Shown here in pieces: positions 3,097-6,024 of a stretch of DNA of 64,000 nt; position 1 is the stretch's first letter, and every line of letters starts with the position of its first letter. The notes beneath the pieces are model-generated. The model made no database searches. It was not told the DNA's origin and was given only the letters and a program-made list of their open reading frames with translations. Source of the stretch: Sulfurimonas denitrificans DSM 1251 (lineage in GTDB: Bacteria > Campylobacterota > Campylobacteria > Campylobacterales > Sulfurimonadaceae). A program made the position numbers and the translations under genes. The stretch is taken from assembly GCF_000012965.1 (NCBI RefSeq), contig NC_007575.1:1302001-1366000 (forward strand), given 5' to 3'.

Positions 3097-5193
3097 ATGG
3101 TTGAAAATATTTTAAAAAGAGATGGTACGCATAAAGAATTTTTATCTTTTAAAATTGAAGATGCTATCAAAAAAGCGTTTAAATCTCAAAATATTATCTA
3201 TGATAGTTCAATCTTTTTTAATGTACTTGATGAGCTTAAAAATAAAAGAGTTATCGCAGTTGAAGATATTCAAGATTTAATTGAAAAAGAGCTTTATAAA
3301 TCAAGATATTTTGATGTTATGCGCTCTTTTATGATTTATCGCCACACTCATAAAATGCAAAGAGACAGCCTTCTTAGTGAAGATACAACATATATAAACT
3401 CTACTCAAACTATTGAAGAGTACATACTTGGAACAGACTGGCGTATAAAAGCAAACTCAAACACTGGCTACTCAAATGCAGGACTTGTAAACAACACAGC
3501 AGGTAAAGTAATAGCAAACTACTGGTTGGATAAAATCTACTCAAAAGAAGAAGGCTATGCTCACCGCAATGGTGATTATCACATCCACGATTTAGATTGT
3601 TTAACTGGATATTGTGCTGGTTGGTCTCTGCGTGTTTTGCTTGATGAGGGTTTTAATGGAGTAAGAGGCAGAGTTGAGAGTGACGCTCCAAGACACTTCA
3701 GAGAAGCTTTAGGACAGATGGCAAATTTTTTAGGCATACTTCAAAGTGAATGGGCTGGTGCACAAGCATTTAGCTCATTTGACACGTATTTAGCGCCTTA
3801 TGTATTTAAAGACAAACTGCCATATAATGAAGTAAAAAAAGCTATAAGAAGTTTTATATATAATTTAAATGTACCAGCACGTTGGGGTCAGTCGCCATTT
3901 ACAAACATAACTATCGATTGGACTGTACCTTCTGACTTACAAGACCAGATTCCAACATCTAAACAACTACACCTTTTCAAAGGTATGTTAGATAGTGAAC
4001 TAGAAGAAATGGCATTACAAAGAGGTGTCAAGTCACTTCAAGAGATGACATACAAAAATTTCCAGCCAGAGATGAATCAGATAAATAGAGCTTACTATGA
4101 GATTATGACTGAGGGAGATTTAACTGGGCAACCATTCACATTCCCTATTCCAACTGTTAACATTACGGAGGATTTTGATTGGTATGGAGAAAACACAGAT
4201 GTACTTTTTGAAAATACTGCAAAGATTGGTTCATCATATTTTCAAAACTTCATTGGCTCTCAATACAAAAGAGATGTAAATGGAGATTTAGTGCCAAATG
4301 AAGAGGCTTATAAACCAGGGCATGTAAGAAGTATGTGTTGTAGGCTACAACTAGACTTACGTGAGCTTCTAAAGCGTGGTGGTGGGCTTTTTGGAAGTGC
4401 TGAAATGACTGGAAGTATAGGCGTTGTAACTATAAATATGGCTAGACTTGGCTTTTTATATAAAGGAAGCAAAGAGGCTCTTTATACTCGTCTTGATCAA
4501 TTAATGGAACATGCAAAATCTACTCTTGAGAAAAAAAGAGTTTTTATTCAAGAGATGTATGATAGAGGTCTTTACCCATATACTAAACGTTATCTGCCAG
4601 GATTTAGAAACCACTTCTCAACTATCGGTGTAAATGGTATAAATGAGATGATTAGAAACTTTACAAGTGATGCTTACGATATCAGTGATAAAAGAGGCGA
4701 AGATTTCGCTATTGAGATTTTAGAGTATATTAGAGCTAGAATGGTTGAGTTTCAAGAAGAAACAGGAAACCTTTACAATCTTGAAGCAACTCCTGCTGAG
4801 GGAACAACTTATAGATTTGCAAAAGAGGATAAAAAGCGTTATGGCGACTCAATACTTCAAGCTGGAATGGGTGATAATATCTACTATACAAACTCATCTC
4901 AGATACCAGTTGATTTGACAAACGACCCTTTTGAAGCGTTAACTCTACAAGATGACCTACAGTGCAAATATACAGGCGGAACAGTTCTGCACCTCTATAT
5001 GCAAGAGAAAATCAGCTCAACTGAAGCGTGTAGAAAATTAGTTAAAAATGTAATATCAAATTTTAGGCTTCCTTACATTACGGTAACTCCACTCTTCTCC
5101 GTATGTCCAAAACATGGATATATTGCAGGTGAGCATGAGTATTGTCCAAAATGTGATGAAGAGTTACTTAGCGATGTTACAATCGCATCTTAA
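3097..5193 (+). CDS. nrdD: anaerobic (class III) ribonucleoside-triphosphate reductase, main chain without its glycyl-radical tail
   Basis: The 698-residue product reduces ribonucleoside triphosphates to deoxy forms without oxygen. An ATP-cone allosteric domain (about residues 1-90, beginning VENILKRDGTHKEF) precedes the ten-stranded NrdD barrel, with the active-site pair C414-C415 in RSMCCRLQLDLREL. The C-terminal zinc ribbon is present at residues 670-686 (C670, H673, C683, C686), but the protein stops at residue 698, before the glycyl-radical loop that class III enzymes carry next. That loop is on the next small gene, 14 bases downstream. It has a good Shine-Dalgarno (AGGAG) and a -10-like TATAAA at about 3055-3060. 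Confidence 0.95.
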   Translation: MVENILKRDGTHKEFLSFKIEDAIKKAFKSQNIIYDSSIFFNVLDELKNKRVIAVEDIQDLIEKELYKSRYFDVMRSFMIYRHTHKMQRDSLLSEDTTYINSTQTIEEYILGTDWRIKANSNTGYSNAGLVNNTAGKVIANYWLDKIYSKEEGYAHRNGDYHIHDLDCLTGYCAGWSLRVLLDEGFNGVRGRVESDAPRHFREALGQMANFLGILQSEWAGAQAFSSFDTYLAPYVFKDKLPYNEVKKAIRSFIYNLNVPARWGQSPFTNITIDWTVPSDLQDQIPTSKQLHLFKGMLDSELEEMALQRGVKSLQEMTYKNFQPEMNQINRAYYEIMTEGDLTGQPFTFPIPTVNITEDFDWYGENTDVLFENTAKIGSSYFQNFIGSQYKRDVNGDLVPNEEAYKPGHVRSMCCRLQLDLRELLKRGGGLFGSAEMTGSIGVVTINMARLGFLYKGSKEALYTRLDQLMEHAKSTLEKKRVFIQEMYDRGLYPYTKRYLPGFRNHFSTIGVNGINEMIRNFTSDAYDISDKRGEDFAIEILEYIRARMVEFQEETGNLYNLEATPAEGTTYRFAKEDKKRYGDSILQAGMGDNIYYTNSSQIPVDLTNDPFEALTLQDDLQCKYTGGTVLHLYMQEKISSTEACRKLVKNVISNFRLPYITVTPLFSVCPKHGYIAGEHEYCPKCDEELLSDVTIAS

Positions 5194-5207
5194 AAAGGAG
5201 GTGGAAA

Positions 5208-5360
5208 ATGAGCAAAAATGAAGCTTTAGCTATGTTGAATGAAAAAAGACAAAAGTGTACTGTGTACACAAGAGTTATGGGTTATCACAGACCCGTAGAG
5301 AGTTTTAACGTAGGAAAAACTGGTGAGCACAAACAGAGAAAACAATTCACTGAGTGCTAG
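5208..5360 (+). CDS. separate glycyl-radical tail of class III ribonucleotide reductase (50 aa)
   Basis: A 50-residue gene in a different frame, 14 bases after nrdD, with a very strong Shine-Dalgarno (AAGGAGGTG). Residues 17-40 (CTVYTRVMGYHRPVESFNVG and following) match the C-terminal glycyl-radical segment of class III NrdD, where the radical glycine sits in RxxGY; here it would be Gly25. The sequence ends with basic KQRKQF and Cys. The main chain has the barrel, active-site cysteines and zinc ribbon but no RxxGY loop, so the enzyme seems to need this peptide in trans, analogous to GrcA (YfiD) replacing the damaged tail of pyruvate formate-lyase. The dedicated ribosome site argues against a simple sequencing frameshift. 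Confidence 0.85.
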   Translation: MSKNEALAMLNEKRQKCTVYTRVMGYHRPVESFNVGKTGEHKQRKQFTEC

Positions 5361-6024
5361 TGTAATATATGACTTAACGTCATTCACCCACTTAGATTAC
5401 CCAGACCACCTATCTTGTATAGTGTGGTTTAGTGGGTGCAATATGAGATGTGATTACTGCTACAACAAAGATATAGTTTTTGCCAAAGATGGCAAATACA
5501 GCTATAAAGATATCCTTGACTTTTTAAAAACTAGAGTAAATCTGCTTGAAGCAGTTGTTTTATCTGGCGGCGAAGCCTCTTCTTATAATTTGGTTCCATT
5601 TTGCCTCAAGATAAAAGAACTTGGATTTAAAATAAAGCTCGATACTAACGGCACAAATTTCTTACATGTAGAAGAGTTAATTAAACTTAATCTCTTAGAT
5701 TATGTAGCACTTGATTATAAAGCTCCAATGGCAAAATTTACCCAAATAACTCACTCAAATAAATTTGATGAATTTAGCAAAACTCTTGATTTTTTAATAG
5801 AACAAAATATTGACTTTGAGGCTAGAACAACACTTCATAGTGATTTGTTATCTGAGAGTGATATAAATGAGATTATAAATGATTTAACTAAGCGTGGGTA
5901 TAAAAAAGAGTACTATATTCAAGAGTTTGTAGAGACAGAGTCAAATATAGGCGATTTAAAAAGAGCGAAAAAGAGCTTTGATAAATCTCTTTTACAAAGT
6001 GACCTTAAAATTGTTTTTAGATGA
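5323..6024 (+). CDS. nrdG: anaerobic ribonucleotide reductase activating protein, radical SAM
   Basis: The 233-residue product carries the radical-SAM cluster motif CxxxCxxC at C39, C43 and C46 in SGCNMRCDYCYN, a SAM-binding GGE motif (LSGGEAS) and DTNG, typical of NrdG-type activases that generate the glycyl radical on NrdD. No ATG is available before the conserved YDLTSFTHLDYPDHL block, so the GTG at 5323 is the best start. That start lies inside the 50-residue tail gene (38-base overlap in another frame), so translation of the activase is probably coupled to that of the radical tail. The three genes nrdD, tail and nrdG form one operon. Confidence 0.92.
   Translation: MSTNRENNSLSASVIYDLTSFTHLDYPDHLSCIVWFSGCNMRCDYCYNKDIVFAKDGKYSYKDILDFLKTRVNLLEAVVLSGGEASSYNLVPFCLKIKELGFKIKLDTNGTNFLHVEELIKLNLLDYVALDYKAPMAKFTQITHSNKFDEFSKTLDFLIEQNIDFEARTTLHSDLLSESDINEIINDLTKRGYKKEYYIQEFVETESNIGDLKRAKKSFDKSLLQSDLKIVFR

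Follow-up and report, generated by a model that had tools for sequence, protein, structure and literature searches.

Where does a class III ribonucleotide reductase (RNR), the oxygen-sensitive enzyme that makes DNA precursors anaerobically, keep its radical site when its large subunit NrdD ends before that site? This question is raised by a locus of Sulfurimonas denitrificans DSM 1251 located in the window analysed here, a stretch of 64,000 nucleotides of contig NC_007575.1 (positions 1,302,001 to 1,366,000 of the forward strand). The locus comprises nrdD, a 50-codon gene for a stand-alone glycyl-radical domain (hereafter the tail) and the activase gene nrdG. Very probably, these genes specify an obligate two-polypeptide class III RNR, in which the 50-aa protein is the glycyl-radical subunit acting in trans. 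The features of the locus, in window positions, are the following.

3097..5193, + strand: nrdD, class III RNR large subunit of 698 aa without a glycyl-radical loop (open reading frame (ORF); Pfam NRDD; NCBIfam NF006126)
3106..3354, + strand: ATP-cone, NrdD residues 4-86 (Pfam PF03477, E 7e-17)
4333..4344, + strand: finger-loop MCCR, NrdD residues 413-416, double-cysteine type (sequence)
5104..5154, + strand: zinc ribbon C670-x2-H673-x9-C683-x2-C686, the last NrdD domain (sequence)
5191-5193, + strand: nrdD stop TAA (sequence)
5195..5201, + strand: Shine-Dalgarno sequence AAGGAGG of the tail gene, 6 nt 5' of its ATG (sequence)
5208..5360, + strand: stand-alone glycyl-radical domain gene (tail), 50 aa, ATG at 5208 (ORF; NRDD 530-562; separate ORF conserved in relatives)
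5271..5285, + strand: RVMGY radical loop, Gly25 codon at 5280-5282 (sequence)
5323..6024, + strand: nrdG, NrdG2-type radical-SAM (S-adenosylmethionine) activase, GTG start (TIGR02495 NrdG2)
5437-5460, + strand: NrdG2 motif CNMRCDYC (sequence)

NrdD matches Pfam NRDD (PF13597) over profile positions 2-529 (531 bits, E 5e-159, cut-off 26.2), as well as the NCBIfam models NF006126 (1089 bits) and TIGR02487 (411 bits, cut-off 326). It contains the NRDD catalytic domain, the finger-loop cysteine and the zinc ribbon of a class III RNR. The RxxGY loop is absent from this chain, which stops 12 residues beyond the final Cys of the zinc ribbon. The end of the profile, positions 530-562 of 562, is matched by the 50-aa ORF (E 1.2e-7, 31.3 bits, curated cut-off 26.2), which is read in a frame different from that of nrdD and carries RVMGYHRP at residues 22-29. 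In NCBIfam (E 0.001) the tail matches two NrdD models only. The first-pass annotation, made from the letters alone, had described an NrdD ending after the zinc ribbon (670-686) without an RxxGY loop and a 50-residue gene in another frame, with its own ribosome site and Gly25 as the candidate radical residue; the sequence and the NRDD match bear out both descriptions, and the profile cut at 529|530 agrees with its placing of the split at a domain boundary.

The tail gene overlaps nrdG by 38 nt. NrdG matches TIGR02495 (NrdG2) with 182 bits (cut-off 131), so that the cognate radical-SAM activase is present. In 43 aligned NrdD rows, an alignment which leaves out 15 tail-only rows of low identity and suspected misplacement, M413, C414, C415 and R416 and the zinc-ribbon residues C670, H673, C683 and C686 are invariant. 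A whole-genome profile search of the 2.2 Mb single-contig genome gave no NRDD match besides NrdD and the tail; a second full-length nrdD, one of two simpler accounts named in the first-pass annotation, is thereby ruled out. The other, a single continuous frame hidden by sequencing error, fails since the split recurs in many genomes. A class I/II-type RNR large chain is encoded outside the window (G000:C1:2191554-2193212), so NrdD is not the only RNR of the genome.

The search for the same gene pair in other Campylobacterota, advised by the first-pass annotation, was carried out on two samples. Among 60 genomes, tail matches were found in 29 (the window's included), all in open frames of 50-102 aa. 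The end of NrdD lies just upstream in all 29 loci and a NrdG-type Cys motif lies downstream in 28 (the exception is L005), the distance from the NrdD stop to the tail start being -46 to +111 nt. Of 397 genomes with a completeness of 90% or more, 207 have NRDD and 185 the tail (again with the window's), the latter in open frames of 51-90 aa among the matches listed; 184 of the 185 have a further NRDD match besides the tail. Comparison of the genome lists leaves 22 genomes with NRDD and no tail. Eighteen of these have an unbroken NrdD of another type covering profile positions 1-562 (four were read: L032-L034, L038), G395 has its NrdD at a contig end, and G372, G171 and G271 give weaker, presumably partial matches. 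Fused NrdDs of the window's type were found in three genomes of the phylum (L035, L036, L037). The L036 protein, of about 893 aa, is some 150 residues longer than expected and may contain an insert.

Confinement to Campylobacterota is ruled out by split loci in Bacteroidota and Pseudomonadota. A genome-collection scan returned at least 587 relatives of the tail, of which the best 80 loci, mostly from these three phyla, were kept; they include Sulfurimonas, Sulfurospirillum, Nautiliaceae, Arcobacteraceae and Campylobacter concisus, and also Flavobacterium, other Bacteroidota, Pseudomonas indica and proteobacterial metagenome-assembled genomes. The tail occupies a short separate frame in 79 of them; the 80th (L090) is in a long open frame, though with a Met of its own, and is preceded by NrdD. 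NRDD was detected in 21 of 296 Bacteroidota genomes (20 above the cut-off), eight of which have NrdD with a separate tail. For Pseudomonadota (397 genomes) the numbers are 66 (65 above the cut-off) and 16 where the tail is separate (ten were read); in the remainder, G919 has two in-frame stops and most others are unbroken over 1-562. The same trio, a 676-aa NrdD, a 66-aa tail and NrdG, is carried by plasmid pHG1 of Cupriavidus necator H16, and nrdD-tail-nrdG is found on plasmid records of Sulfuricurvum kujiense and Bradyrhizobium. A tail match with NrdD in the same stretch occurs on the megaplasmid of C. metallidurans, the genome paper of which lists nrdDG as Rmet_5137 and Rmet_5139.

The position of the tail relative to nrdD varies. 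In 74 of the best 80 named loci the gap between them has a median of -4 nt and a range of -47 to +852 nt; all possible frame relations occur, 41, 20 and 13 times. A motif resembling a ribosome site precedes the tail in 45 of 79 named loci (a count made with no shuffled control). The nearest tail lies by coordinates at least 58 kb from nrdD in seven genomes that belong to one genus (G127, G216, G240, G247, G259, G306, G408); in G306 and G247 the two are at opposite contig ends, about 70 and 130 kb apart if the contigs are circular. An NrdG-like ORF, judged by eye, adjoins the tail in all seven. The four nrdD regions that were read (L048, L147, L148, L149) contain no tail, and in G996 (Pseudomonadota) the tail is about 9.5 kb from nrdD. 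Together, these findings exclude a frameshift as the general mechanism and tie the tail to the activase. It is hardly credible, then, that programmed frameshift or stop read-through still yields one continuous NrdD chain, of which the short ORF is no more than the second half: the ORFs are close in the window, and relatives with overlapping ORFs, or with an intervening stop in a shared frame, are numerous, but the varied frames and distances speak against it, and the tails have starts of their own. Three further features of spacing were observed: a 160-aa ORF between nrdD and tail at L156:2383-2865, the 852-nt gap, which belongs to L058, and spacers of 78-98 nt in L017, L020 and L062 of the Sulfurimonas group, which have a similar extra NrdD C-terminus.

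The tail gene is under selection. The dN/dS ratio (non-synonymous to synonymous substitution rate) of the radical domain has a median of 0.051 and a maximum of 0.21, indicating strong purifying selection; of the 406 pairs that 29 tails form, those with dS between 0.1 and 1.5 (132) were used. None of the 111 distinct cellular and 58 distinct viral tail fragments lacks the radical Gly; they were collected with a motif which fixes residues on both sides of the Gly and leaves the Gly itself free (3 of the 80 viral loci are missed by it). That the split is decay, with an NrdD inactive or working without a radical glycine and the tail a relic, is most improbable: loss of NrdD could be tolerable because the genome has the class I/II-type large chain, and no direct support was found, whereas the selection on the tail, its invariant Gly, the recurring nrdD-tail-nrdG order, the persistence of the split across three phyla and the fact that nrdDG is reported to be essential in C. 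necator H16, where the genes are likewise split, all speak against it. In H16 NrdDG is described as essential for complete denitrification (PMC2864759, citing Siedow 1999), which indirectly supports in vivo function of the split enzyme.

How the split arose was considered with a tree of 80 NrdD cores, from which the tail had been cut off (quick method; support from the Shimodaira-Hasegawa-like approximate likelihood ratio test, SH-aLRT; L108 absent). The label "split" in this tree includes L090 and rows whose tail lies outside the fetched stretch (e.g. L147-L149). Nearly all split NrdDs of Pseudomonadota, Bacteroidota and Campylobacterota fall in one set (SH-aLRT 81). Fused L037 adjoins split L043 (99), whereas L035 and L036, also fused, lie within a split set (98 and 99); these fused genes look like re-fusions because they are nested inside the split group. 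Fused L239 is poorly placed and split L242 lies outside the main split set. The tree needs four changes of state, and an old split followed by a few later re-fusions would be its simplest reading. A tree of the tail, with about 50 columns and without 18 near-duplicate viral loci, L001-L002 and L032-L051, is a rough guide.

Separate genes, their conservation, copies unlinked from nrdD, fused relatives and closeness to nrdG are the observed base of the two-polypeptide reading. The separate ORFs in three frames, the distant tails, the one-chain relatives and the lack of another nrdD support, at the level of sequence, the in-trans radical subunit proposed in the first-pass annotation. The radical, its docking and the order of activation and binding are inferred from fused NrdD and pyruvate formate-lyase (PFL). 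NrdD would supply the ATP-cone, the barrel, the finger-loop cysteines and the zinc ribbon, and the 50-aa protein would be a separate radical subunit, obligate because its partner has no radical loop of its own. NrdG2, encoded in the same gene cluster, could with SAM take hydrogen from Gly25 of the tail. The tail loop would then enter the NrdD barrel beside the finger loop and start catalysis like the C-terminal loop of fused enzymes; in these the radical sits on that loop, which reaches into the barrel and contacts the finger loop (PMC4493059).

A model was built of the read-through chain of a relative, L052, in which a six-residue linker joins the two parts and the Gly is model residue 729 (mean predicted local distance difference test score, pLDDT, 74.6; predicted template modelling score, pTM, 0.69). 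VIA-align ranges extend into the tail for 13 of the 21 class III rows listed and end there at model residues 731-741. One of the 13, 1hk8, aligns model 132-731 with chain 35-580 (Z 23.2, 3.2 A over 456 residues), and the PFL row 1cm5, model 113-737 on 72-752 (Z 14.0), also reaches the tail. These alignments of a predicted model fit docking of the tail and are no proof of it.

Several results weigh against the two-polypeptide reading. Residues 729-754 of the model, the radical loop, have a pLDDT below 50, and the linker forces the parts close. For 8 of the 21 class III rows the alignment stops short of the tail, at model 664-688, and an alignment range gives the first and last aligned residues only. 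The tail alone has no match among PDB sequences. The set holding nearly all split rows has support of 81 by SH-aLRT only, with long outgroup branches. A NrdG motif was unseen downstream in 7 of the 79 named loci, and in G394 a tail and an NrdG-like ORF were found with no NrdD, perhaps because of an assembly gap.

Tails without nrdD nearby also occur. Neither these lone phage copies nor the spread beyond the phylum had been foreseen in the earlier annotation. A viral scan gave 97 relatives of the tail, of which 80 were kept; 75 of the 80 lie in open frames shorter than 160 aa (tblastn). Whole viral records were searched with NRDD for 50 of the 80, near-duplicates and some others being left out. 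An NRDD match was present in 49, NrdD is held by two (G1149, G1181), and 47 have a tail without NrdD, although the records may be fragments; one of the 47, G1164, has a further weak NRDD fragment. The terminase family phrog_2 is matched in 17 of the 50 records (some via stop codons) and in 11 of 14 control genomes, and it marks phage or prophage alike because so many controls match. Among 94 larger ORFs of 27 viral loci there are terminase, portal, head, tail, endolysin and integrase matches (25 of 227 families listed). Three viral tails (L211, L217, L224) have a Cys-rich N-terminal extension, which might be a small metal-binding module replacing the zinc ribbon.

Bacterial genomes can also hold additional tails: 17 of the 185 tail-bearing Campylobacterota genomes have more than one. 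Extra lone copies away from nrdD and nrdG are located at L138:2858-3034, L139:2957-3145, L145:3066-3242, L150:2843-3016, L151:3063-3221, L153 and L154:2945-3109. Extra copies were taken from six of the genomes; among the neighbours tested, a holin stands beside the L138 tail and an integrase near the L154 tail; the other neighbours have unknown-function or no PHROG matches. The viral tail L170 is identical to an L153 tail over the aligned part. PHROG 4132, listed without function, is matched at positions 110-157 of 179 by the window tail (E 4.6e-9) and by a prophage tail (E 4.1e-12), which suggests that this family is a class III RNR radical domain. Known phage records gave two partial matches below 60% identity to the window tail and no match to a viral tail variant.

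It is suggested only that phages carry the tail to keep the host enzyme charged. The wider proposal, that the radical subunit is exchangeable in a widespread class III RNR lineage and that a phage-carried copy of about 50 residues, charged by the host NrdG, keeps or restarts anaerobic deoxynucleoside triphosphate (dNTP) synthesis of the host as a spare-part system other than that of PFL, stands at even odds. Alternatively, the lone phage tails could be a decoy for NrdG or NrdD, or neutral cargo, and not serve dNTP supply at all, which appears unlikely. In a bulk survey, not by locus, of 58 ORFs beside the tail at 35 loci (32 viral, 3 bacterial; 25 of 34 Pfam families listed), nine matches are peptidoglycan hydrolases and two are holins. 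Among the named neighbours of lone phage tails, lysis functions (endolysin, peptidoglycan hydrolase, holin) come up most often; this favours a decoy or cargo. The radical Gly kept in viral tails speaks against it, as do a ThyX thymidylate synthase among the same flanking ORFs and cytidyltransferase families. All six bacterial genomes with fetched extra copies have a split NrdD, which is a weak argument because nearly every tail-bearing genome has one.

Why the radical domain should be separate at all is a further question. It could be a replaceable radical cartridge: oxygen cuts at the Gly, and the cell discards 50 residues and keeps the large subunit of about 700, a possibility to which somewhat less than an even chance is given. 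PMC8683613 describes how oxygen cleaves the chain at the glycyl radical and how YfiD or Y06I rescues PFL. Haem-copper oxidase (PF00115), compared in 80 genomes hand-picked from a list of 121, is more frequent with split NrdD overall (35 of 39 vs 29 of 41 others), in Bacteroidota (8 of 8 vs 4 of 12 other NrdD genomes) and in Pseudomonadota (15 of 16 vs 10 of 14). Campylobacterota show the opposite direction (12 of 15 vs 15 of 15) and the comparison is confounded by phylogeny; with this mixed result an oxygen lifestyle is rejected as a clean cause of the split. Neutral gene fission with subsequent inheritance and transfer would fit as well.

A natural enzyme with a separate radical-site subunit would be a direct system in which to follow installation, movement and replacement of a glycyl radical. 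The lone phage copies, if truly helpers of the host enzyme, would represent a metabolic helper gene of very small size, and PHROG 4132 would gain a function. For annotation, a split NrdD has the look of a truncated protein and its tail is readily missed; in some RefSeq records, and in the plasmid records named above, the small protein is called anaerobic ribonucleoside-triphosphate reductase.

One RNR whose chain is also divided, NrdJa/NrdJb, belongs to a class without a glycyl radical. In this class II enzyme of Pseudomonas aeruginosa the RNR chain is likewise in two polypeptides (PMC4520616). A phage nrdD in several pieces is described in PMC3653736, the only paper returned when the open-access literature was searched for a split or truncated nrdD; its breaks are introns, inteins or fragmentation in single phages, and the passages on them mention no conserved radical-domain gene. 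No description of the nrdD/tail arrangement was found in the open-access literature, subscription papers being mostly outside the search.

With canonical class III RNRs (E. coli, T4, Thermotoga maritima, Prevotella copri) the locus shares the ATP-cone, NRDD domain, finger-loop Cys, zinc ribbon, RxxGY loop and adjacent activase, and the MCCR double-Cys type places the window NrdD on the Thermotoga side of the class III tree (PMC9669993). Papers on this class put the glycyl radical domain at the NrdD C-terminus (PMC9669993, PMC9531940, PMC4493059); in the window the loop has a gene of its own. GrcA/YfiD of E. coli and Y06I of phage T4, one of them phage-borne, are, like the tail, small autonomous glycyl-radical proteins working in trans with a large enzyme (PMC8683613). 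According to that source only these two spare parts, both for PFL, have been validated and others are possible; the tail bears on its question of whether glycyl radical enzymes beyond PFL have spare parts. By profile the tail is outside the GrcA/YfiD family, being of NRDD type with no other Pfam family at E 0.001, and it would nevertheless work like GrcA. The comparison with GrcA drawn in the first-pass annotation holds in this respect for mechanism and not for role: GrcA backs up a complete enzyme, whereas the tail is predicted to be an obligate subunit of a partner that has no loop.

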